Position numbers and translations under genes: made by a program. A DNA stretch of 23,786 bases from a virus: positions 1 to 23,786 of the IMG/VR virus record IMGVR_UViG_3300028548_002669. One strand, 5' to 3'. The notes under the pieces were generated by a model. The model was not told where the DNA came from, searched no databases, and saw only the letters and a program-made list of their open reading frames with translations. This document shows, in pieces, positions 3,111 through 16,159 of the stretch; the first letter of the stretch is position 1, and the number at the start of each line of letters is the position of its first letter.

Positions 3111-3139
3111 TTGACATTACATTAAAAGTGTAGTATAAT
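3111..3139 (+). promoter_or_regulatory. Sigma70-like promoter for the CobS-like gene
   Basis: TTGACA at 3111-3116 and TATAAT at 3134-3139 with a 17-base spacer, starting three bases after the upstream stop codon. The -10 is framed by TGTAG (3129-3133) and CTACA (3142-3146), a 5-bp inverted repeat. Similarity to the 787-815 promoter extends beyond the two hexamers, which suggests the paired genes are switched on together. Confidence 0.88.
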
Positions 3140-4993: not shown

Positions 4994-6067
4994 ATGGGAC
5001 TAAAAGTTCATGACTTAGAAACTGGCGAATTAAAAGACGGTGTAGTCGCAGAACCATCAAAAGATAGAAAATATGAGATACCTCCCTGCTCTCCAGAAGA
5101 ATGGGAAACTATTGAACCAACTGAAAATGATATTAAAAATGTAAAAAATGCATTTCCAGATATGTGTGATGAAGACGAAATCTTGTTTCAAGCTAAAACC
5201 AAACGATATAGAAAAAACTTTGCTCAACGACATCGCGATGTATTTGAACAACACGAAAAAGATGGCACACTAGACAAACTTCCAAAAGATAACATGTTTA
5301 ATCCTCATGCAAAACCAGCTGTTGGCACATCTGCGTCAAATCCTGCTTCCATGCAAATTGTAATGCGACCACGAAATGCTTTTCATATGATGAAGGTTGA
5401 ACTTCCAGAAAATGTAATTGGTGACATCAATGGTTTTGTTGATGATACATTAATTCCTAATGATAAAGATTTATCTAATTCTTTAGTTGGACAAATCAAT
5501 CGCACCGATAAATCAAAACAATTAGAGTTTGACCATAAAGATGAAAGTGTTGGTCAGATGTTAGGTGGTTTAATTGAAAATCTGGGTAATGCGTATTTAC
5601 AAAATGCTTTGGATGGTAATAGTCATTGGACAAAACTAAAAGATGATGAAGAATACAAAACAAGAATAAGTAGTATGTGGACAGTCCATAGTTATGCGGG
5701 AGATTACAACCCTTTACACGATCATGGCACTGAAACAGAAATAGGACTATCTTGTATTCTATATCTAAAAGTACCAGAACAAATTGCAGCACTCCCCAAT
5801 CCCGCTGAAGATTATTTTTGTAAAGGATTAAATGGTGCAAGTGGTTGTTTCGATGGATTTACATATTTCTGTTGGGGTGCTCATGGTATGCGTGATGCAA
5901 ATATGTTACGGCCAGTGACAGAAGAATATGTCAAACCAGAAGTTGGAACTATGTTGATATTTCCATCATGGTTAAGACATTCTGTCAATCCATTTTTTGG
6001 AGAAGGCGAACGCAGAACTTTATCTGCTAATCTTAATGTAGATAAAAAGAAGAAGGTTATTAAATGA
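4994..6067 (+). CDS. 2OG-Fe(II) oxygenase family protein (phage type)
   Basis: 357 residues. The C-terminal half matches the phage/bacterial 2-oxoglutarate-Fe(II) oxygenase fold: HSYAGDYNPLHDHGT (232-246, metal ligands among His242/His244), LSCILYLKVP (252-261), PEVGTMLIFPSWLRHSVNPF (315-334, His329 as distal ligand) and GEGERRTLSANL (337-348, Arg for the 2OG carboxylate). The N-terminal ~130 residues are charged and not recognised. Such enzymes hydroxylate a protein, nucleic acid or small molecule; the substrate here is unknown. It is the first of three 2OG oxygenases in the window. Start: ATG 4994 with AGAGAA upstream. The stop overlaps the next gene (ATGA). Confidence 0.82.
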   Translation: MGLKVHDLETGELKDGVVAEPSKDRKYEIPPCSPEEWETIEPTENDIKNVKNAFPDMCDEDEILFQAKTKRYRKNFAQRHRDVFEQHEKDGTLDKLPKDNMFNPHAKPAVGTSASNPASMQIVMRPRNAFHMMKVELPENVIGDINGFVDDTLIPNDKDLSNSLVGQINRTDKSKQLEFDHKDESVGQMLGGLIENLGNAYLQNALDGNSHWTKLKDDEEYKTRISSMWTVHSYAGDYNPLHDHGTETEIGLSCILYLKVPEQIAALPNPAEDYFCKGLNGASGCFDGFTYFCWGAHGMRDANMLRPVTEEYVKPEVGTMLIFPSWLRHSVNPFFGEGERRTLSANLNVDKKKKVIK

Positions 6068-6387
6068 TTGATTACAAATATAATGAACTTGCTGTTTTAG
6101 ATGAACTGAAACAGTACATTGACTCTACTTATGATGCACACTATAGTAAGGATAAGTTCCAAGCTACAGAATTCATCATTGATGGTGGTCATGGTGAAGG
6201 TTTCTGTATCGGCAACATACTCAAGTATGCACAACGCTATGGAAAAAAGAACGGTAAGAACAGAGCAGATTTATTGAAGGTAATTCATTATGGAATTATC
6301 GCCCTACATGTCAATGATATGGAATGCAATGTTAGTGACCAAAGAAAAAAATCAGTTCGTAAAATCATGGGCGATCTACCTAAATGA
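6064..6387 (+). CDS. DUF3310-like small protein
   Basis: 107 residues, starting at ATG 6064 and sharing ATGA with the preceding stop, so probably translationally coupled. Residues 47-80 (GFCIGNILKYAQRYGKK followed by NRADLLKVIHYGI) match the core of the DUF3310/SaV-like family common in phages, usually seen as GN-x-x-KY-x-x-R-x-GKK-x-x-x-x-DL-x-K. The fold is small and helical. It is often grouped with nucleotide metabolism genes, but no biochemical role is firm. Just downstream lies a strong promoter, so this is the last gene of its transcription unit. Confidence 0.7.
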   Translation: MIDYKYNELAVLDELKQYIDSTYDAHYSKDKFQATEFIIDGGHGEGFCIGNILKYAQRYGKKNGKNRADLLKVIHYGIIALHVNDMECNVSDQRKKSVRKIMGDLPK

Positions 6388-6404
6388 TTTATCAACTTTT
6401 TATA

Positions 6405-6433
6405 TTGACACAAAGACTTCTTTGTGTTATAAT
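6405..6433 (+). promoter_or_regulatory. Consensus sigma70 promoter for the replication operon, with internal dyad
   Basis: TTGACA (6405-6410), 17-base spacer, TATAAT (6428-6433): a perfect consensus promoter. Its spacer contains a perfect 8-bp inverted repeat, ACACAAAG (6408-6415) and CTTTGTGT (6420-6427), with a 4-base centre. A second dyad, AATGTA (6431-6436) and TACATT (6440-6445), spans the expected start site. Both look like operator sites for a dimeric regulator, or could form hairpins in a read-through transcript. Confidence 0.9.
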
Positions 6434-6475
6434 GTATCTTACATTAAACGTGAAAATTCTAGGAGAATTTAAATA

Positions 6476-7150
6476 ATGAAATTAAGTAACCATACAACTT
6501 CTGTGTTGAAGAACTTTTCAACCATTAATCAAAATTTAGTGATTAAGGAAGGAAATACAATTACAACAATGTCTGCAATGAAGAATATTATTGCCAAGGC
6601 TGAAGTGGAAGAAACCTTTCCCCAACAAATCGCGATTTATGACTTAAATGAATTTCTAGGCGCTCTGTCTTTATTTTCAAGTCCTATCTTAGATTTTGAT
6701 GACAGCTATGTTATGATTAGTGAAGAAACTAAACCTTCAACTAAAATGAAGTATTTTTATTCTGACCCTTCTGTTGTTACAACTCCAACTAAAATGATTA
6801 CTATGCCTTCTAATGAAGTCAAGTTTACTATGAGCAATGATGACTTGTCTAAACTAAAGCGTGCAGCTGCAGCCATTGGCGCACCTGACATGGTTTTGGA
6901 AAAAGATAGTTCTGTTTCATCTCTTACTGTAAAAGATAAGAAGAATGATACTGCGAATAACTATTCACTTGATATTGATACTGACAGTGAAGGAGAGTTT
7001 AACTTCTACTTTAAAGTAGAAAACATGAAACTTCTTGATGGTACTTATGATGTAGAAATCTCAGCTAAGAATATTAGTCACTACAAAAATAATAATACTG
7101 ATGTTGAATATTGGATTGCACTTGAACCCGAATCAACTTACAAAGCATAA
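6476..7150 (+). CDS. 45: DNA polymerase sliding clamp gp45
   Basis: 224 residues (T4 gp45 has 228). The N terminus MKLSNHTTSVLKNFSTINQN, a central AIYDLNEFLGALSLF block, and C-terminal YKNNNTDVEYWIALE are characteristic of T4 gp45. The protein forms a trimeric ring that tethers the DNA polymerase and, in T4, also activates late transcription at TATAAATA promoters, which fits the two late promoters in this window. Start: ATG 6476 with AGGAG at 6461-6465. It is the first gene of the replication operon and is expressed from the strong 6405 promoter. Confidence 0.96.
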   Translation: MKLSNHTTSVLKNFSTINQNLVIKEGNTITTMSAMKNIIAKAEVEETFPQQIAIYDLNEFLGALSLFSSPILDFDDSYVMISEETKPSTKMKYFYSDPSVVTTPTKMITMPSNEVKFTMSNDDLSKLKRAAAAIGAPDMVLEKDSSVSSLTVKDKKNDTANNYSLDIDTDSEGEFNFYFKVENMKLLDGTYDVEISAKNISHYKNNNTDVEYWIALEPESTYKA

Positions 7151-7167
7151 GTTAGGGATATTACATA

Positions 7168-8103
7168 ATGGAAACATATTTATGGGTGGAGAAATACCGC
7201 CCAGCTAGAATAAGTGATTGCGTTTTACCAGATGAATTAAAGTCTACATTTTCTGAGTTTGTTAAAGATAAACATATACCAAATCTAATATTATCAGGCG
7301 GGCCGGGCGTAGGTAAAACTACTGTCGCAAAGGCAATGCTTGAAGAAATTGGTGCGACCTATATGATGATTAACGGTTCAGAAGAATCTGGTATTGATGT
7401 CCTGAGAACAAAAATCAAGAACTTTGCTTCTACTGTATCCCTTGAAGGTGGAAGAAAGTATCTCATTATAGATGAGGCAGACTATCTAAATTCACAATCT
7501 ACTCAACCCGCTTTGCGTGGTTTCATGGAAGAATTTCACAAGAACTGTGGATTCATTCTTACTTGTAACTACAAGAACAGATTAATACCACCACTACATT
7601 CTCGTTGTAGTGTTATTGAATTTCTTCTTCCTAACGAACAGAAACCTAAACTTGCAAACAATTTCTTTGCAAGAGTGCAAGAAATTCTGACTCAAGAAAA
7701 GGTAGAGTTTGAACCTAAACCTGTTGCAGAACTTGTATATAAGTTCTTCCCCGACTGGCGTAGAGTGTTGAATGAACTACAACGATACTCTGTATCTGGT
7801 AAGATTGATGCTGGTGTTCTGGTAAATCTATCTGAATCAAATATTAATGAACTGATGACATCTCTTAAAAACAAAGAGTTTACAAAGGTTCGTGAGTGGA
7901 TTGTTCAGAGCTTAGACAATGATGCTGTGCGTGTTTATAGAAGCATCTACGATAGTCTATATGACCACTTAGATGCTAGTACTATTCCTCATGCGGTTGT
8001 TATCATTGCTGACTATCAATACAAGGCTGCTTTTGTTGCTGACCAAGAAATCAATCTACTTGCTTGCATGACAGAGTTGATGGGTCAGGTTAAGTTTAAA
8101 TGA
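7168..8103 (+). CDS. 44: Clamp-loader large subunit gp44
   Basis: 311 residues (T4 gp44 has 319). AAA+ clamp-loader ATPase: N-terminal WVEKYRP, Walker A GGPGVGKT at 44-51, Walker B LIIDEAD with Asp102/Glu103, and the SRC arginine-finger motif at 145-147. Four gp44 and one gp62 open the gp45 ring and load it at primer ends. It lies 17 bases after gp45, with AGGGA upstream of ATG 7168. Its stop shares ATGA with the following oxygenase gene, not with gp62 as in T4. Confidence 0.97.
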   Translation: METYLWVEKYRPARISDCVLPDELKSTFSEFVKDKHIPNLILSGGPGVGKTTVAKAMLEEIGATYMMINGSEESGIDVLRTKIKNFASTVSLEGGRKYLIIDEADYLNSQSTQPALRGFMEEFHKNCGFILTCNYKNRLIPPLHSRCSVIEFLLPNEQKPKLANNFFARVQEILTQEKVEFEPKPVAELVYKFFPDWRRVLNELQRYSVSGKIDAGVLVNLSESNINELMTSLKNKEFTKVREWIVQSLDNDAVRVYRSIYDSLYDHLDASTIPHAVVIIADYQYKAAFVADQEINLLACMTELMGQVKFK

Positions 8104-8735
8104 TTAGAACTAAGCTTTCAACTAGGGAAATAACTTCTCTAGATACTTACAATTTAAAAAATGTGCCAAACGACAAGATAGCAGAACTGATTAAATCATC
8201 TGGCGATTTACAAGATCATAAAACAAATCTGAAATGTGATATGACTTCTTGGTCGTTTCATAAGGAAAATGAATTAATAGTAAAGCTAACTGATGTAATC
8301 ACAGAAATAATAAATGAAGATACGAAACCCTTTAAACATGTATTGCTAGATTGCTGGGGTGCTGTTTATCGTAAAGGTGAACATGCTATACCACACTTTC
8401 ATTTGCCCTGTTCACTGAGCTTTGTCTATTGTGTAAAAACACCGAAAGGAAGTAGTCCATTAGTTTTTGATAATGCGTTTGAATACGACAAAAAGAAAAA
8501 AAACTCTAAAAATAAACCTTTTTGTATACACCCTAAAGATGGGCAGCTGATAGTTTTTACATCAGATACTACTCATAGTGTTCCTAAAAGCACTATTGAC
8601 GAAGAACGAATAGTCATTGCAGGCAATTACTTTTACTTGCCAGAAAGAGAATTTGCATTTACACCATCATTTACAGAAACATGGTCTGCATCAGCAAATG
8701 AATTATTAAGCGCAAGATTTGGAGGTAAAAAATGA
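8100..8735 (+). CDS. 2OG-Fe(II) oxygenase-like protein inserted between gp44 and gp62
   Basis: 211 residues. Motifs: WGAVYRKGEHAIPHFHLPCS (86-105, metal ligands from His99/His101), LSFVYCVKTPKG (106-117), PKDGQLIVFTSDTTHSV (145-161, His159) and EERIVIAGNYFYL (168-180, Arg170 as likely 2OG ligand). This is the double-stranded beta-helix oxygenase pattern, of a different subfamily from the 4994 protein. Substrate unknown. ATGA overlaps at both ends place it neatly between the two clamp-loader genes, which are adjacent and translationally coupled in T4. It should therefore be made with the replisome and might act on a replication protein or on nucleotides (inference). Confidence 0.75.
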   Translation: MIRTKLSTREITSLDTYNLKNVPNDKIAELIKSSGDLQDHKTNLKCDMTSWSFHKENELIVKLTDVITEIINEDTKPFKHVLLDCWGAVYRKGEHAIPHFHLPCSLSFVYCVKTPKGSSPLVFDNAFEYDKKKKNSKNKPFCIHPKDGQLIVFTSDTTHSVPKSTIDEERIVIAGNYFYLPEREFAFTPSFTETWSASANELLSARFGGKK

Positions 8736-9130
8736 CATACGATTTAAAAGATTACCTCAAAGAAATCAATACAGATAAAACACCTCTGATGGATTCAGAA
8801 GATGAAATGTGGGAAAAGAAATATCCCCCATACATTGTAAATAAATGTCTGGCTCCATTTCTAGACACCATTCATCTTGTTAATGAAATGAATGTTAACT
8901 GCCACCTTGACCATAAACTTCAATTTGATTTTCTTCTAAATAGTCTAAGAGCAAGGAAAAGATTTACTCCTTGGCTGAAGGCGAGTAAAATAGACGATCT
9001 AGAGTATGTTAAAGAGTATTATGGTTATAATAATGAAAAGGCAAAGTCTGCTCTTAAAATACTTAATGATGAACAGATAAAGGCTATCAAAGATAGTTTG
9101 AATAAAGGTGGAAGAAATGGAAAGCATTAA
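8732..9130 (+). CDS. 62: Clamp-loader small subunit gp62
   Basis: 132 residues, shorter than T4 gp62 (187) but like the short form of marine T4-like phages. Typical blocks are YDLKDYLKEIN at the N terminus, PPYIVNKCLAPFLDT in the middle, LDHKLQFDFLLNSLRARKRF, then YVKEYYGYNNEKAK near the C terminus. It forms the clamp loader with gp44. Start ATG 8732 overlaps the previous stop (ATGA), and its 3' end overlaps regA by 14 bases. Confidence 0.9.
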   Translation: MTYDLKDYLKEINTDKTPLMDSEDEMWEKKYPPYIVNKCLAPFLDTIHLVNEMNVNCHLDHKLQFDFLLNSLRARKRFTPWLKASKIDDLEYVKEYYGYNNEKAKSALKILNDEQIKAIKDSLNKGGRNGKH

Positions 9131-9521
9131 CTGGAAACAGGAGCATATGCTTGAAGTCGTACTGAAAGAACCAGACGATTTTTTAAAAGTACGAGAGACT
9201 CTATCTCGTATTGGCGTTGCTTCAAGAAAAGAAAAAATACTATATCAATCCTGTCATATCCTACACAAACAAGGTAAATACTTTATTGTACACTTTAAAG
9301 AATTGTTTGCATTGGACGGCAAAGAAACTAATTTATCAGAAAATGATATTGCAAGGCGTAACACAATCTCAAAGTTATTAGGGGATTGGGGATTGGTAGA
9401 TATTAAGGGAGATTTAGAACCTATTGCTCCTCTTAGTCAAATTAAAATTATTTCATTCAAAGAAAAAGATGAATGGACTCTTGAAACTAAATACAATATA
9501 GGCAAAAAGAGAGAGAGTTAA
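9117..9521 (+). CDS. regA: RegA translational repressor
   Basis: 134 residues from ATG 9117. A GTG at 9108 in the same frame is possible, but ATG 9117 has AGGTGG just upstream and gives the usual RegA N terminus. Similarity to T4 RegA (122 aa) is clear: EPDDFLKVRETLSRIG, ILYQSCHILHKQGKYFIVHF, RRNTISKLLGDWGL, IISFKEKDEW and KYNIGK. RegA binds the initiation regions of early phage mRNAs, including clamp and clamp-loader genes in T4, and blocks their translation. The T4 order 45-44-62-regA is kept apart from the inserted oxygenase. In T4 the next gene is DNA polymerase gp43; here it is not. Confidence 0.95.
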   Translation: MESINWKQEHMLEVVLKEPDDFLKVRETLSRIGVASRKEKILYQSCHILHKQGKYFIVHFKELFALDGKETNLSENDIARRNTISKLLGDWGLVDIKGDLEPIAPLSQIKIISFKEKDEWTLETKYNIGKKRES

Positions 9522-9522
9522 C

Positions 9523-10962
9523 TTGGAACAATTTAAGACATTTATTACAGAACAAGTAACAAGAAGTGAAATTCAAGTTGTTGTTCTGACAAAGGTTGAT
9601 GCTGACAACAAAACTAATGTTAGTAATATGATTGACAAAGAATGTGCAAAAAGAAACATTACTTGTCATATTATTAACATTGAAGATGCTTGGGTTTCAA
9701 AAAATGACTTAGATAAAGGTACTTTGCACATATCAAACATTGATGGTGAAGATACCGAAGCTAAACTTGAACTTTCAAAAACCATTTGTTTTGTTCGTGC
9801 AGGAGCTCTAAAAGACGAAACCGGATTAGCAATATTATCTACATTCCAAAATGCCGGTGCATTTATGATAAACACTAGAGATAGTATGTTGACTTGTGAT
9901 AACAAAATGTCTGCATATATTTCTTTTGAAAGAGATAATATTCCAACACCAAGAACTGCTCTTATTTCAAATGAAAAGGGATTGCTTGCCGCACACGAAA
10001 GACTAGGTGGTAATTTTCCTGCGATTATGAAAACAATTACAGGAACACAGGGTATTGGTGTTTCAATTGTTGAATCTGAAAAAAGTATGGTTTCTGTTGC
10101 ACAATCACTTTGGAAGTTTGGCGCATCACTTTTGCTCCAAGAATTCTTAAAATTTGATTTTGATGTTCGTACAATAGTAATTGATGGTAAAGTTTTGGCA
10201 TCAACCAAAAGAACTCAATCAAAGGAAGACTTTCGTTCTAATAGACACAGAGGTGCAACCACTGAAGGTTACAAACTATCAAAAGAAGAACATAAGATAG
10301 TTTTAAACGCAGCTCGTTCTGTTGGTGCTTACATGGTAGGTGTAGATCATGCGATAGTTGATGGTCAAATTTATGTCCTAGAATGTAATGGTAGCCCCGG
10401 CCTCGGTTCAAACTTTGGACTTTATGATATAACTAAAAGAGATGAAACCTATATTGGTAAGGTTAAATCAGAAAACATAATGAAAAGTTTGTTTGATTAT
10501 ATTACCCAAGATAACCACAGAAGACACTCATTTATAAAAGAATCTGGTTACGCTGAAAGAATTGATGTTCATGGGTACGGCCCAATTAGAGGAAAATTTG
10601 ATACAGGAAATGGAACTAATGCGTCTATGTTTGTTGTAGACAAAATTGATGTTTCTGGTAAAAGTGTTAGATGGGAAAAAGACGGCAAGAAGTTTACAAG
10701 TAAATTACAAGGTATGTCTTACCCAGAACATGTTGATAAAATTGATGAAAGACCAATTGTCTTTGTTAATATTACTTTCAACAATAAATTATATAAGGAA
10801 GTTCCAATAGGATTGACAACAAAAGATTCTAAAAGTACCTTTCTTATTAATAGGGAGTTATTGACTAGATTTAAAGTTAATATAAATCCCAATAGGAAGT
10901 TTGTTTTGTCTGATTGGATTGACCGATACGATAAAAACGACAAAGATACAAATACTATTTAA
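9523..10962 (+). CDS. RimK-like ATP-grasp ligase fused to a RimB/retropepsin-like domain
   Basis: 479 residues. The ATP-grasp part (about 85-330) has CDNKMSAYISFERDNIPTPR, PAIMKTITGTQGIGV (Lys170), LLLQEFLKFDFDVRTIVIDG, and VLECNGSPGLG with Glu287/Asn289, as in RimK, which adds glutamates to ribosomal protein S6. Residues 350-465 resemble the aspartyl-protease-like domain of the RimK-associated protease family (RimB): RGKFDTGNGTNAS with Asp360-Thr-Gly, and VPIGLTTKDSKSTFLINREL. A ligase and a possible trimming protease therefore share one chain. Likely role: peptide ligation to a host or phage protein tail; substrate unknown. Start: TTG 9523 is the only credible one, behind AGAGAGAG; an in-frame stop lies at 9499-9501. 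It occupies the position of T4 gene 43. Confidence 0.8.
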   Translation: MEQFKTFITEQVTRSEIQVVVLTKVDADNKTNVSNMIDKECAKRNITCHIINIEDAWVSKNDLDKGTLHISNIDGEDTEAKLELSKTICFVRAGALKDETGLAILSTFQNAGAFMINTRDSMLTCDNKMSAYISFERDNIPTPRTALISNEKGLLAAHERLGGNFPAIMKTITGTQGIGVSIVESEKSMVSVAQSLWKFGASLLLQEFLKFDFDVRTIVIDGKVLASTKRTQSKEDFRSNRHRGATTEGYKLSKEEHKIVLNAARSVGAYMVGVDHAIVDGQIYVLECNGSPGLGSNFGLYDITKRDETYIGKVKSENIMKSLFDYITQDNHRRHSFIKESGYAERIDVHGYGPIRGKFDTGNGTNASMFVVDKIDVSGKSVRWEKDGKKFTSKLQGMSYPEHVDKIDERPIVFVNITFNNKLYKEVPIGLTTKDSKSTFLINRELLTRFKVNINPNRKFVLSDWIDRYDKNDKDTNTI

Positions 10963-10975
10963 TTAAGGAAAAAAA

Positions 10976-11230
10976 ATGAAGCGAATGATAATTGATGTAC
11001 TAAGAAAAAAATACGAATACGAAATAGCTGTTAGTAAAACCAATATTGAACTTTATAAAGATGGCAATGCTCCTGTCGGTATGAGTAGTAATGTAGTAGA
11101 TGCTGTTCATAGGGAAATAATTAATCTTGCAGTTGCAAGAGATCATCTTGAAACTTTAGACAAAGAGTTTCCCATAGTACCAAAAACTCAAACTCTTGGT
11201 GAAACATATAACGATCAAATAAAGTCTTGA
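10976..11230 (+). CDS. Small helical protein of unknown function
   Basis: 84 residues, start ATG 10976 with AAGGAAAA just upstream, 13 bases after the RimK-like stop. The sequence is charged and looks helical (MKRMIIDVLRKKYEYEIAVSK, then REIINLAVARDHLETLDKEF), with no cysteines or membrane segment. Similar short proteins are common in marine T4-like phages, but no function is recognised. Its TGA stop lies inside the -35 box of the next promoter. Confidence 0.7.
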   Translation: MKRMIIDVLRKKYEYEIAVSKTNIELYKDGNAPVGMSSNVVDAVHREIINLAVARDHLETLDKEFPIVPKTQTLGETYNDQIKS

Positions 11231-11255
11231 CATTTACCCCAAAGGGCAGTACAAT
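11227..11255 (+). promoter_or_regulatory. Upstream promoter of a tandem pair
   Basis: TTGACA (11227-11232), 17-base spacer, TACAAT (11250-11255). The TGA stop of the 84-aa gene is part of the -35. It is the first of two promoters 88 bases apart ahead of the PP-loop/C5-methyltransferase/CmoA-like genes. Confidence 0.75.
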
Positions 11256-11314
11256 TATACAATGAATCCTGTGATAGAACTTTTGAAAAACTTCAAATTA
11301 TTTCAGAATAACTC

Positions 11315-11343
11315 TTGACAATCCAACAACAACTTGGTATAAT
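11315..11343 (+). promoter_or_regulatory. Downstream promoter of the tandem pair
   Basis: TTGACA (11315-11320), 17-base spacer, TATAAT (11338-11343), a perfect consensus. Transcription would start near 11350, at or next to a tiny reading frame (11351-11398) that runs into the PP-loop gene start. Confidence 0.88.
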
Positions 11344-11350
11344 GTAAGTA

Positions 11351-11398
11351 ATGGGAACTATGAGCTTGAATGATTATATGGAACAATTAGTTGCATGA
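11351..11398 (+). CDS. Possible 15-codon leader reading frame
   Basis: ATG at 11351 (or 11360, giving MSLNDYMEQLVA) reads to TGA at 11396-11398, sharing ATGA with the start of the PP-loop gene at 11395. It would be the first thing translated from the 11315 promoter. From 11360 there is a weak GGGAA upstream. It may couple translation of the downstream gene, since no good ribosome binding site is seen directly before 11395, or it may be chance. Confidence 0.35.
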   Translation: MGTMSLNDYMEQLVA

Positions 11399-12213
11399 TT
11401 AAAACCCTTTTAGAAAATCATATTGAAAAGAACGCACCAGATAGTGAGATTGCCGTCTTGCTATCTGGCGGTGTTGATTCTATATCAGTAGCCTTTGCAG
11501 CTGCTAACTTAGGTAAAAAAAATCATGCATATAGTTTTCGTTTGGATACTCACACCTCTTACGATTTTGAAAAGGCCAAAGAAATTGCAAAACAATTTGA
11601 TTGGAAATTTACTGAAATTATAATTCCAACTAATAATCTAGTTAAAGACTTTCACAGACTAATCGAACTTGGTTGCAAATCTAAAACAAGTGTAGAATGT
11701 ACTTACGCCTTTTTGTATGTTTATCCTCAAATATCACAGAAATATGTTATTTCAGGTTGGGCTGCAGATGGATACTATGGAATTAGTAAAAAGGCTCAAA
11801 TTAATTACAAACACACACAAGAATTATTTGATGAGTTTAGGGATAATTACTTTAAGCCTGATAAGTGTGCAAATTATATCTGGCACAAAAAAGTATCTGA
11901 TGCCCATAGAAAAATATTTATTACACCATACCTTGACGATTCAGTTAAACAATTCTTTTATAGTAAGAGTTGGGACGAACTGAATAAGCCCCTTCAAAAG
12001 CACCATGTAAGAAATGCGTTTGATGAATTTAAATTGATAGGAAATGTGAAAAAACACTTGAACTTACAGATAGATTCTGGTATAATAGACTTGTTCGATA
12101 AATTAATTGATAATAAAGAAATCAATTTTAAAAATAGGACAAGGGTGATGGATATTTGTCGTGATTGGAGCATGCTAAATAATACATCAACACTAGAAGG
12201 ATTTATGAAATAA
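11395..12213 (+). CDS. Asparagine-synthase-like PP-loop enzyme without glutaminase domain
   Basis: 272 residues. PP-loop VLLSGGVDS (21-29) binds ATP pyrophosphate, and SGWAADGYYG (120-129) matches the second conserved loop of asparagine synthetase C domains (SGEGxDE type). The N-terminal glutaminase domain is absent, so the nitrogen donor would be free ammonia or another amine. This family adenylates a carboxylate and turns it into an amide. The next gene starts at ATG 12213, on the last base of this TAA stop, so the two are probably co-translated. Substrate unknown. Context (C5-cytosine methyltransferase and CmoA-like) raises the possibility that it amidates a carboxyl group on a modified base. 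Free asparagine synthesis is less likely for a one-domain, diverged enzyme but is not excluded. ATG 11395 lacks a clear ribosome binding site. Confidence 0.75.
   Translation: MIKTLLENHIEKNAPDSEIAVLLSGGVDSISVAFAAANLGKKNHAYSFRLDTHTSYDFEKAKEIAKQFDWKFTEIIIPTNNLVKDFHRLIELGCKSKTSVECTYAFLYVYPQISQKYVISGWAADGYYGISKKAQINYKHTQELFDEFRDNYFKPDKCANYIWHKKVSDAHRKIFITPYLDDSVKQFFYSKSWDELNKPLQKHHVRNAFDEFKLIGNVKKHLNLQIDSGIIDLFDKLIDNKEINFKNRTRVMDICRDWSMLNNTSTLEGFMK
12058..12086 (+). promoter_or_regulatory. Possible internal promoter before the C5-methyltransferase
   Basis: TTGAAC (12058-12063), 17-base spacer, TATAAT (12081-12086), with TG at the extended -10 position (TGGTATAAT). It lies inside the PP-loop gene, about 130 bases ahead of the C5-methyltransferase start, and could raise expression of the last two genes. 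It sits in coding sequence, so chance is possible. Confidence 0.4.
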
Positions 12214-13409
12214 TGAAATATAAACCATATAATTTAAAAGACGTATATGATGCGTCTGCACAAGAAAAATTTAAAGTTATCTCCACCTTTGCAGGAGGTG
12301 GTGGCAGTTCCACAGGCTACCGTCTTGCGGGTGGTAAAGTTCTTTGCGTCAATGAGTTCGTTGAAGAAGCTGTAAATACTTACAAAGAAAACTATCCAGA
12401 CACACCAATTTTATCTGGAGACATTAAAGCACTCACTGGCCAAGACTTTTTAGATGCGGCAGGTGTCGGTGTAGGTGAGATTGATATCCTAGATGGAAGT
12501 CCACCATGTTCTGCATTCTCTGTGGCGGGTAAGTTATCACACAATTCACTCGAAGAAGAACGAGTCGACCTTTTTGGAAATGTCACTCTTGAAAAGGTCA
12601 GTGGAAAACATAGTGATGGGTGGAATCAGACTAAGAATTATTCTGATGGTAAGACTGTAGAAAACATCGAAGACTTGTTTTTTGAGTTTCTGCGTATTGC
12701 AGAAGAAATCAAACCTAAAGTAATTATTGCAGAGAATGTAAAAGGATTGACTATCGGTGAAGCTCGTCAGATGTATAACAAGATTCTAAAAACCTTTGAA
12801 AGTATTGGATATGATGTCTGTGCCCAAGTTCTAGATAGTAGGTATTATGGAGTATCACAAACCAGAACAAGGGTTATCTTTATTGCGGTTCGTGAGGATG
12901 TTGCTGAAGCTGTAGGATTGAACTTTATGACCCTATCAAGCATATTTCCAGAACCAAGTCGTGAGACTATTCCAGTAAAAGATGTAATGATTGATTTAGA
13001 ATATGATAAAGAAGAAGTAAAATATCTAACCGAGAAGTTTACTAATACTGCATACTGGAAACAAACAGGAAGTATTATGCCAATTGACCCCGAAAAGGTT
13101 CTTACTGGCGGTGATTATCACCCTAAAGGACACCACTTCAATCTAAAACGTGTGTCGCAATATGCGCCAGCACCAACTTTAACTGCAATGGGTAGTGCTG
13201 ATACAACTGCTGGTGCATTTCATTGGATTGAACCACGCAAGCTGACACTAGGTGAACTAAAAAGAATACAATCACTACCAGATGATTTCAAGCTTACAGG
13301 TAAGTGGAATCAGAAATCTGAGAGGATAGGAAGAATGGTTCCCCCGATTATGATGGAAAAAATTGCAACATCTGTTTATGAGAAAGTATTGGAGAAATAT
13401 AATGGTTGA
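12213..13409 (+). CDS. C5-cytosine DNA methyltransferase with Arg in motif X
   Basis: 398 residues with all main motifs of the family. Motif I is STFAGGGGSSTGY (24-36); motif IV is GSPPCSAFS with catalytic Cys99; motif VI is AENVKGL (Glu174); motif VIII is QTRTR (216-220). A target-recognition region of about 110 residues follows, then motif IX RKLTLGELKRIQSLPDDF, and motif X ERIGRMVPP (370-378). The family flips out cytosine and transfers the SAM methyl group to C5. In motif X the usual Asn after IG (IGN) is Arg374. This lies near the cofactor pocket and may matter for cofactor choice, as the next gene encodes a carboxy-SAM synthase homologue. Start ATG 12213 overlaps the upstream stop (TAATG). 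No restriction endonuclease is encoded nearby. Confidence 0.93.
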   Translation: MKYKPYNLKDVYDASAQEKFKVISTFAGGGGSSTGYRLAGGKVLCVNEFVEEAVNTYKENYPDTPILSGDIKALTGQDFLDAAGVGVGEIDILDGSPPCSAFSVAGKLSHNSLEEERVDLFGNVTLEKVSGKHSDGWNQTKNYSDGKTVENIEDLFFEFLRIAEEIKPKVIIAENVKGLTIGEARQMYNKILKTFESIGYDVCAQVLDSRYYGVSQTRTRVIFIAVREDVAEAVGLNFMTLSSIFPEPSRETIPVKDVMIDLEYDKEEVKYLTEKFTNTAYWKQTGSIMPIDPEKVLTGGDYHPKGHHFNLKRVSQYAPAPTLTAMGSADTTAGAFHWIEPRKLTLGELKRIQSLPDDFKLTGKWNQKSERIGRMVPPIMMEKIATSVYEKVLEKYNG

Positions 13410-14124
13410 TTTTACATTTGCACACAGAGAAGAAGGTTTCGATGAACATATTGACAAATCAATTCGTGGTTACAGTTACTTGCTTGATGATGTGGTGTCA
13501 CTATCACGACATTTTGTTGAGAACGATACTAATGTTTATGATATTGGGTGTTCTACTGGCAAAATGACACAGAGATTGGTTGAAGCTAATTTTGACCATT
13601 GTACTAATGCAAAATGGTATGGTATTGAGATTGCTGATGGGTTTCAAGAAGAACTTAAACTGCGTCACGCAGAAATAAATAAGACTGTCAGACAATTGTT
13701 AGGTGTGGGTGAAAGTAGTAAAACAAAGGTATACTTTCATCAGCAGGACATTCGCAACACAATAATTAAAAACGCATCACTAGTAACATCTATCTTTACT
13801 TTACAGTTTATGCCCAAGAAGGATAGACAGAATGTTATTGACTCCATTTGGGAAGGTCTTAATGATGGTGGTGCATATATTTTTGCAGAAAAGACAATCT
13901 GCGAATCAGCAAGACATCAAGATATGTTGACATTTAATTATTATGACCACAAAAGAAAATCATTTACTACAGATGATATTATGAATAAAGAAGTTACTTT
14001 GCGTTCAATGATGAAACCAAATACATGGGCAGAGATACAAGAAATGTTACTAATGGCAGGATTTCAAGAGGTTCAACCCTTCTGGAGAAATCATATGTTC
14101 GTTGGTGCAATTGCAATTAAATAG
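13402..14124 (+). CDS. CmoA-like carboxy-SAM synthase homologue
   Basis: 240 residues from ATG 13402, chosen because GGAG lies seven bases upstream; a longer frame to 13363 would bury the ribosome binding site. The gene overlaps the C5-methyltransferase end by 8 bases. Similarity to E. coli CmoA (247 aa) runs end to end: FDEHIDKSIRGYS (13-25), TNVYDIGCSTG (43-53), ASLVTSIFTLQFM (125-137), GLNDGGAYIFAEK (152-164), DHKRK (182-186), TLRSMM (199-204), AGF and a C-terminal VGAIAIK. Arg201 aligns with CmoA Arg199, which contacts the carboxylate of carboxy-SAM. CmoA makes carboxy-S-adenosyl-methionine from SAM and prephenate, normally for tRNA wobble uridine modification by CmoB. No CmoB is seen here, so the product may serve the neighbouring DNA methyltransferase. 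A plain methyltransferase role remains possible. Confidence 0.8.
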   Translation: MVDFTFAHREEGFDEHIDKSIRGYSYLLDDVVSLSRHFVENDTNVYDIGCSTGKMTQRLVEANFDHCTNAKWYGIEIADGFQEELKLRHAEINKTVRQLLGVGESSKTKVYFHQQDIRNTIIKNASLVTSIFTLQFMPKKDRQNVIDSIWEGLNDGGAYIFAEKTICESARHQDMLTFNYYDHKRKSFTTDDIMNKEVTLRSMMKPNTWAEIQEMLLMAGFQEVQPFWRNHMFVGAIAIK

Positions 14125-14133
14125 GAGAATATA

Positions 14134-14550
14134 ATGGATGATGACCTTACAGTTAGTAAGTTTGAAGAATATGTTAGTTTTGTTGATGCGGTGAGTAGTG
14201 AATCTACTCAATCGACTAAAAGTCTAATTGACACAATTGGTATAATGGAAGAACAAGGTGCAAAGGTATCACGACTACTTACTGCCGGAATAGGACTTTC
14301 TGGTGAAGTAGGAGAGCTGAATGATATTATCAAGAAGGTAGTCTTTCAAGGTGCTGAATATGATGATTACACCAAGTTGCATCTCAAGAAAGAACTAGGA
14401 GATATTTGCTGGTATATGGCTCAGGCCTGTATGGCACTTGACACCTCGTTTGAAGAAATACTAGACATTAACATCGAAAAGTTATCTGATCGCTACCCCG
14501 AAGGATTTGATGCTTTACGATCTGCAAGTAGAAAAGAAGGAGACATTTAA
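14134..14550 (+). CDS. mazG: MazG-like nucleotide pyrophosphohydrolase
   Basis: 138 residues. All-alpha NTP pyrophosphatase motifs: [13 protein letters not shown] with Glu58/Glu61, and [10 protein letters not shown] with Glu87/Asp90, which bind Mg2+. The C-terminal DRYPEGFD is typical of the phage branch. MazG-type enzymes hydrolyse NTPs or dNTPs to monophosphates. In marine phages the role is debated: alarmone control, or clearing of unwanted (d)NTPs to suit the low-GC phage genome. Start ATG 14134 has AGGAG nine bases upstream. It sits 9 bases after the CmoA-like gene and 2 bases before uvsX, so they are probably one transcript. Confidence 0.9.
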
Positions 14551-14552
14551 AT

Positions 14553-15611
14553 ATGAGTGATTTTTTAAAGGATATTATTAAACAAACAGGTAATGAATAC
14601 GCATCACTAGTTTCTGATGGTGTAGAAGCAGGAGATTGTGATTCGTTTATTGACACTGGAAGTTACATTTTCAATGCGTTATTATCCGGTAGTATCAATG
14701 GTGGATTACCAGCTAATAAGATAACAGCGATTGCTGGTGAAAGTGCCACAGGTAAGACTTTCTTTGTAATGGGTATGGTCAAAGCGTTTCTCGATGAAAA
14801 TCCTGAGGCGGGTGTTTTGTACTTTGAATCAGAAAGTGCGATTACAAAATCAATGGTAGTTGATCGTGGAATTGACCCTAAAAGAATGGTTATCATTCCT
14901 GTCACAACAGTACAAGAATTTAGAACACAAGCACTTAAAATATTAGATTCATATCTCGCAAAGAAAGAATCTGATAGGCGTCCAATTATGATGGCACTTG
15001 ATTCATTGGGTATGTTATCCACTACCAAAGAAGTAGAAGATACTTCTGATGGTAAAGAAACACGAGATATGACAAGGGCTCAAGTTCTTAAAGCTGCATT
15101 TAGAGTATTGACTTTGAAACTTGGTCGTGCAAAAGTACCTATGGTTGTTACTAACCACACTTATGATTCAATGGGATTATTCGCCACGAAAGAAATGGGT
15201 GGTGGTTCTGGACTGAAATACGCAGCTTCATCTATTATATTCCTATCTAAGAAGAAAGATAAGGACGGTACAGAAGTTGTTGGTAATATTGTTCATTGTA
15301 AGAACCATAAGTCACGATTGACCATTGAGAACAAAATGGTTGATGTTCGTCTGTCATATGAAAAAGGACTTGATAGATACTACGGACTATTGGAACTAGC
15401 TATCAAGTATGATATATTTAAACAAATATCAACTCGCATAGAACTTCCTGATGGTACTACACAGTTTGCCAAAACGATTAATAACAATCCAAAAAAATAC
15501 TTTACAGAAGATGTGATGCAACAACTTGACGCTGCAGCTAGTAAAGAGTTTAAGTATGGTCAAACAGATGTGCTTCTTGAAGATGAAGTAGAGGAAGAAT
15601 CTGAAAGTTAA
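14553..15611 (+). CDS. uvsX: UvsX RecA-like recombinase
   Basis: 352 residues (T4 UvsX has 391). Walker A GESATGKT at 62-69, Walker B MMALDSLG with Asp150, and RecA-fold [10 protein letters not shown] followed by [19 protein letters not shown]. UvsX forms filaments on single-stranded DNA for strand exchange, recombination-dependent replication and repair, with helper proteins UvsY and Dda encoded elsewhere. The tail is acidic. Start ATG 14553 has GAAGGAG upstream. The next gene starts at 15611 on the last base of the TAA stop. Confidence 0.96.
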
Positions 15612-16159
15612 TGGATAACTATATTAGAAAGTATGACAATGTAGTGACCGATGATTTCTGTGATGGTTTGATTGAAAAGTTTGAATCCCACCCAGAACAT
15701 CAAGAGAAACTATCTCAGGGCTTAATGTCTTTAACACACCTTGAAATGATGCGTCCAGACACACAAGTCTGGAACAAAGACATTATGTACCTTGTAGATA
15801 TTTTTAAGCAAAATGTCGCGACATACAAAAAGGATTGCAAGATTGAGCCAGTAATGTGGCCCAATAAATACTCAGTTGAATCATTTAGAATAAAACGGTA
15901 TTTACCAGATGATGTTGACCAATTTGGGCCTCATGTAGATTCAAAAGATTCAAATACTTGCAAAAGATTTCTTAGCTTCTTTTTATATCTAGATAACAAC
16001 GATAGTGGTTCAACTATGTTTCCACAAATGGATATAACATCAGAGTGCAAGAAGGGAACACTGTTAATGTTTCCACCGCTGTGGCCTTGGCTACATGCTG
16101 GAGAAAAACCAGTCAATAAACCAAAATATATATTAGGGAGTTATTTAAAATATGTCTGA
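15611..16159 (+). CDS. 2OG-Fe(II) oxygenase, prolyl-4-hydroxylase type
   Basis: 182 residues. Complete iron/2OG signature: FGPHVDS with His108-x-Asp110, FLSFFLYLDNNDSGSTMFPQ (120-139), KKGTLLMFPPLWPWLHAG with His162, and PKYILGSYLKYV with Lys172 in the position that binds the 2OG carboxylate. This is the compact prolyl-hydroxylase-like subfamily frequent in cyanophages. The substrate is unknown; hydroxylation of a protein proline or other residue is usual for the fold. It lies between uvsX and the gp40-position gene and overlaps both. Confidence 0.88.
   Translation: MDNYIRKYDNVVTDDFCDGLIEKFESHPEHQEKLSQGLMSLTHLEMMRPDTQVWNKDIMYLVDIFKQNVATYKKDCKIEPVMWPNKYSVESFRIKRYLPDDVDQFGPHVDSKDSNTCKRFLSFFLYLDNNDSGSTMFPQMDITSECKKGTLLMFPPLWPWLHAGEKPVNKPKYILGSYLKYV

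Follow-up and report, generated by a model that had tools for sequence, protein, structure and literature searches.

Three overlapping genes in a marine T4-like phage most likely specify a DNA hypermodification of the CmoA-CmoX-CmoY type, in which a carboxymethyl group on cytosine would be capped with an amino acid, probably glycine; we put the probability of this reading at about 0.88. The genes lie in an IMG/VR virus fragment (IMGVR_UViG_3300028548_002669), all 23.8 kb of which was analysed and is called the window here. Homologues of all three products were described in Synechococcus phage S-B43 by Yang et al. (Nat Commun, 7 Dec 2025; PMC12783734). In that system, SpCmoA has carboxy-SAM synthase activity, SpCmoX (PDB 8YF3, with carboxy-SAM) makes 5-carboxymethylcytosine (5cxmC) at GC sites and is unable to use SAM, and SpCmoY ligates glycine to 5-carboxymethylcytosine; carboxymethylation blocks HhaI (PMC12783734). 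A literature search on 5cxmC returned nothing relevant besides this paper.

By analogy with S-B43, the window CmoA would convert SAM and prephenate to carboxy-SAM. CmoX would flip out a cytosine, Cys99 would attack C6, and the carboxymethyl group of carboxy-SAM, held by Arg374, would be transferred to C5 to give 5-carboxymethylcytosine, probably at GC dinucleotides. CmoY would then adenylate the new carboxylate with ATP and join an amine to it, most likely glycine, and the resulting 5-glycylcarboxymethylcytosine would shield the phage DNA from host restriction. Each chemical step has been shown for homologues elsewhere; from these we infer, for the window phage, that the enzymes are active, that they target GC, that the amine is glycine and that the DNA is protected.

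The initial annotation of this DNA had proposed carboxymethylation of cytosine followed by amidation. Its DNA-carboxymethylation idea was right and is no longer new, having been published for homologues in December 2025. Carboxy-SAM, 5-carboxymethylcytosine and amide formation all match the published chemistry of enzymes 45–61% identical to those of the window (PMC12783734); carbamoylmethylcytosine, the product it named, gives way to a glycine amide as the likelier one. The window operon corroborates 5-carboxymethylcytosine hypermodification as a common phage strategy, here in a marine backbone like that of OM43 phages. To this we add three predictions, taken up below: phages RN05-S and S-CRM01 would have naked 5cxmC, cassettes would be swapped behind a common promoter, and a class of CmoA-linked methyltransferases in Staphylococcus phages would do without the key Arg.

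The operon and its setting

The three genes that the initial annotation had read at 11395-14124 are indeed there, on the same strand and with fitting Pfam and PHROG classes (table). cmoY and cmoX overlap by 1 nt, and cmoX and cmoA by 8 nt. The same Y-X-A order occurs in 95 other viral loci, and the trio recurs in well over a hundred, some of these records being overlapping or near-identical; the arrangement is far beyond chance. Upstream of cmoY are two sequences close to the sigma-70 consensus, which we infer to function as promoters.

Features of the window, with positions counted from its first nucleotide
Feature	Position	Strand	Description	Evidence
RimK-like ATP-grasp gene	9523-10962			
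2OG-oxygenase gene, first	4994-6067			
2OG-oxygenase gene, second	8100-8735			
2OG-oxygenase gene, third	15611-16159			
Second sigma-70-like promoter (predicted), upstream of operon	11227..11255	+	TTGACA-17-TACAAT	Consensus scan, 11/12
Putative sigma-70 promoter of operon	11315..11343	+	TTGACA-17-TATAAT, with TG	12/12 consensus match
cmoY	11395..12213	+	AMP-forming, ATP-dependent amide ligase type, 272 aa	Pfam Asn_synthase 1.1e-13
PP-loop of CmoY	11464-11481		SGGVDS, residues 24-29	
cmoX	12213..13409	+	Predicted DNA cytosine C5-carboxymethyltransferase, 398 aa	Pfam DNA_methylase (PF00145) 3.8e-56; best structure match 8yf3
Catalytic Cys99 codon	12507..12509	+	SPPC motif	SpCmoX Cys98 by alignment
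Arg374 codon	13332..13334	+	Motif X	Aligns with SpCmoX Arg350; role taken from PMC12783734
cmoA	13402..14124	+	Predicted carboxy-SAM synthase, 240 aa, ATG at 13402	4gek/4iwn/1im8 matched over whole length

As in the window, the three enzymes of S-B43 are encoded by adjacent, overlapping genes. Global alignments give identities of 61% for CmoX, 57% for CmoA (range 55-57%) and 45% for CmoY (over 95%). In contrast, the gene order is A-Y-X in S-B43, the window CmoX is about 17 residues longer after motif IV in the alignment, the window CmoY has Ser96 and Ala105, and the backbone around the operon is T4-like and nearer to that of an OM43 phage than to that of a Synechococcus phage. The window encodes a clamp loader, RegA, a UvsX/RecA-like protein and a DnaB-type helicase; among named phages, the OM43 phage Melnitz (Methylophilales phage) is the closest to it in DNA sequence. 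Megablast of window 5057-14124 against named phages gave no match.

Melnitz (EXVC044M) carries a homologous methyltransferase (39-44% identity) between the same neighbours, a RimK-like ATP-grasp gene on one side and MazG/RecA/2OG-oxygenase/primase/DnaB genes on the other. However, the Melnitz enzyme has Leu at the carboxylate-binding site and a TET/JBP oxygenase beside it, with no CmoA or CmoY; its chemistry is predicted to be methylation and hydroxymethylation. The RimK-like gene and the three 2OG-oxygenase genes of the window were considered as parts of the pathway. The RimK-like gene and the third 2OG-oxygenase gene are also present in Melnitz, a phage without CmoA, and these two look like backbone.

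The ligase and its amine

CmoY belongs to the Asn_synthase-type PP-loop synthetases and is linked to cmoX and cmoA. It shares its PP-loop and its predicted fold with beta-lactam synthetase and asparagine synthetase B: an AlphaFold2 model (pLDDT 91.8), used for fold class only, has beta-lactam synthetase 1mc1 as its best match and also matches AsnB 1ct9. Unlike those enzymes, CmoY lacks the N-terminal glutaminase/Ntn domain, being a stand-alone synthetase domain, and its proposed substrate is DNA. Acidic, basic and polar residues conserved in the family are kept (Lys97, Glu101, Asp125, Arg149, Asn197, Lys202, His221, Asn223, Gln225 and Arg248).

Which amine does CmoY join? The same operon might use another alpha-amino acid, or free ammonia, which would give carbamoylmethylcytosine. 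The window protein has Ser96 and Ala105 where the family has Lys (92%) and Pro (96%), and these changes are clade-specific. Given these changes, and an identity of only 45% between CmoY and the glycine ligase, an amino acid other than glycine is possible. Moreover, ligase clusters with other pocket residues, one of them with a glutaminase domain, have been described (PMC12783734). On the other side, the missing glutaminase domain and the kinship to SpCmoY make plain amidation less likely, and hence an amide of glycine, or of another amino acid, is a better guess than carbamoylmethylcytosine. Overall, we consider an amine other than glycine somewhat unlikely.

It is far less likely that CmoY does not act on DNA and that the final base is naked 5-carboxymethylcytosine. 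Such a base is apparently tolerated: the complete genomes of RN05-S, S-CRM01 and Mcat8 all have cmoA and cmoX, and no Asn_synthase-family gene was found in them. Without a ligase gene, these phages are predicted to carry naked 5cxmC. In RN05-S there is no cmoY between cmoA and cmoX, and its cmoA is 97% identical to that of S-B43. In the window, however, no gene stands between the putative promoter and cmoY, which overlaps cmoX. In E. coli, SpCmoY left no 5cxmC unconverted, and mass spectrometry of S-B43 phage DNA detected 5gcxmdC and no 5cxmdC (PMC12783734).

The methyltransferase, CmoA and their linkage

The window CmoX matches the structure of SpCmoX with carboxy-SAM (8yf3) over residues 5-395 with an E value of 4e-140, and its Pfam class and SPPC cysteine place it among C5-methyltransferases. 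All SpCmoX cofactor residues named in PMC12783734 are kept; the carboxy-SAM contacts F25, E47, F48 and D69 align with Phe26, Glu48, Phe49 and Asp70. As the initial annotation had noted, motif X reads IGRM, with Arg374 as the basic residue. Its counterpart in SpCmoX, Arg350, occupies the position of HhaI Asn304, touches the carboxymethyl group of carboxy-SAM, and is said to “mirror” N374K of M.MpeI (PMC12783734). The earlier guess that Arg374 sits at the position of the engineered M.MpeI Asn374 was thus correct. In both enzymes a basic residue stands at the motif X Asn position, which in M.MpeI N374K leads to use of carboxy-SAM (PMC12783734). The M.MpeI residue is an engineered Lys in an enzyme with CG specificity, whereas the window has a natural Arg and presumably GC specificity. 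GpC dinucleotides occur in the window about as often as expected (observed/expected 0.98), a ratio that is uninformative, speaking neither for nor against GC targeting.

The likeness of the third product to CmoA over its whole length was borne out by the E. coli and Haemophilus CmoA structures (E values 3e-25 to 3e-23); 4gek matches residues 3-239 with an E value of 3e-25. Pfam assigns a generic methyltransferase domain, and PHROG a tRNA methyltransferase (5.7e-57). The initial annotation had placed Arg201 at the position of Arg199, a residue important in E. coli CmoA, but this is off by four residues. In the 4gek and 4iwn alignments, Glu197 of the window protein stands opposite E. coli Arg199 (QK-R-SMLENVM); Arg201 lies a helical turn further on and pairs with E. 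coli Glu203. Among 136 distinct CmoA sequences from phages, 121 show this Glu/Arg arrangement and 3 the E. coli-like Arg/Glu. Since the active S-B43 CmoA also has Glu/Arg, the swap is compatible with CmoA activity and is not disqualifying.

We surveyed 281 viral loci, found with CmoY, CmoA, CmoX and the Melnitz methyltransferase as baits, plus a few named phages. CmoA was present on the fetched stretch at 187 of the 200 loci with Arg in motif X, and CmoY at 135. Neither was present at any of the 81 loci with Leu, 65 of which had a TET/JBP oxygenase. These loci are not independent, as some contigs are present twice, and the CmoA and CmoY baits favour linked loci. After clustering at 92% identity, 71 of 80 Arg representatives had CmoA, compared with 0 of 25 Leu representatives. 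In a quick tree (SH-aLRT) one branch separates Arg from Leu, so that the linkage statistic largely reflects one evolutionary switch rather than many. In this survey Arg was not ordinary among methyltransferases of the subfamily that lack CmoA neighbours, an outcome that the initial annotation had named as one that would refute its proposal.

A small Arg clade (L181, L187, L189 and L197) has no neighbouring CmoA, and none was found in the 12-20 kb records of L187, L188 and L197. These phages may depend on the CmoA of their host, as was the case with recombinant E. coli in the published work (PMC12783734), or may carry CmoA elsewhere.

That CmoX is an ordinary 5-methylcytosine methyltransferase beside a CmoA serving tRNA cmo5U, as the tRNA role of bacterial CmoA and the PHROG label could suggest, is rejected as very unlikely on the structure match and the linkage: its best match is a carboxymethyltransferase unable to use SAM, S-B43 has CmoA without CmoB (PMC12783734), and in viral loci the motif X Arg goes with CmoA, whereas the Leu relatives go with a TET/JBP oxygenase and without CmoA.

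Apparent cassette exchange and variants in related phages

Three observations on related phages, namely an apparent exchange of cassettes in contig L265, the ligase-free phages above, and methyltransferase-CmoA pairs in Staphylococcus phages, were not found in the main text of PMC12783734.

Over most of the flanking genes, the DNA of contigs L265 and L266 is 84-89% identical to that of the window. In the promoter region, a 68-bp stretch of the window (11286-11353) matches, at 94% identity, the L265 sequence that precedes a different methyltransferase cassette. Behind this shared promoter, L265 has a Leu-type methyltransferase followed by ParB-like, unknown and P-loop kinase-like genes, the ParB-like gene being assigned by reading the sequence, with no Pfam hit. 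In L265 uvsX is found at another place, so this cannot strictly be called a three-gene exchange. In a bolder and rather unlikely reading, the window CmoY would join a non-glycine amine to give a DNA base not yet described, and the cmoY-X-A operon would be interchangeable with the alternative methyltransferase cassette behind one conserved promoter, such that close relatives would switch DNA chemistry wholesale.

In the Staphylococcus phages SPbeta-like and vB-SscS-F1, CmoA adjoins, or lies one gene from, a C5-methyltransferase homologue. In this homologue the key residue is Gly (Gly312 in SPbeta-like), and GSPC replaces SPPC. The usual Asn (GNGW) is found in the closest relatives that lack CmoA. 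The filter used in the published work, SPPC and Arg350 (PMC12783734), would miss these pairs. Our guess is that loss of the Asn side chain in the Gly-type methyltransferase could make room for the carboxylate.

Inferred exchange of modification cassettes

Two viral loci share a phage backbone and differ in the genes it carries. Between L265 (5900-9353), a contig used for comparison, and the window (11280-16159), backbone DNA is 84-89% identical, and a 68 bp promoter region common to both is 94% identical. In L265, this region is followed by genes for a Leu-type C5-methyltransferase, a ParB-like protein, an unknown protein and a P-loop kinase-like protein. From the DNA comparison, we infer an exchange of modification cassettes.

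Presence and absence of the ligase gene

The ligase gene cmoY lies between cmoA and cmoX in Synechococcus phage S-B43 (L002, 4488-7110), but is absent from Synechococcus phage RN05-S (L004, 5271-7110), whose cmoA DNA is 97% identical to that of S-B43. No Asn_synthase-family gene was found in S-CRM01 or Mcat8. The lack of a ligase gene predicts naked 5-carboxymethylcytosine in RN05-S, S-CRM01 and Mcat8.

In another contig (L211, 4811-7852), the gene immediately 5ʹ of cmoX-cmoA encodes serine hydroxymethyltransferase, a glycine-forming enzyme; no Asn_synthase-family ligase was detectable in this 30-kb contig. In Erwinia phage pEa_SNUABM_1 (L008, 2762-5996), DUF1611 and alanine-racemase N-terminal domain genes separate cmoA from a CmoY-like ligase gene, hinting at an unusual amine as ligase substrate.

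Variation in CmoX and other C5-methyltransferases

Staphylococcus-phage-type CmoA is encoded close to C5-methyltransferases in L311 (5947-7646), L007 (4950-7468) and L318 (608-3996). The carboxylate-binding position of these methyltransferases is Gly (VVGGVINQ), neither Arg nor Asn; L318 also encodes a second, Arg-type methyltransferase (RAGRTV). One supported clade (L181, L187, L189 and L197) consists of Arg-type CmoX proteins without a nearby CmoA and may depend on host CmoA. The CmoX homologue of Erwinia phage Alexandra (L315, 2624-4753) contains an intein, inserted immediately N-terminal of the catalytic Cys in the SPPC motif, and retains the motif X Arg.

Other features of the window

Besides the promoter at 11315, the window has two further perfect predicted promoters, which suggests that strong early promoters of host type occur here as a set. 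The N6/N4 methyltransferase gene is probably truncated by the window edge.

Additional features predicted in the window
Feature	Position	Basis
N6/N4 DNA methyltransferase, C-terminal part	138-737	PF01555
Perfect TTGACA-17-TATAAT predicted promoter	3111-3139	Consensus match
Perfect TTGACA-17-TATAAT predicted promoter	6405-6433	Consensus match
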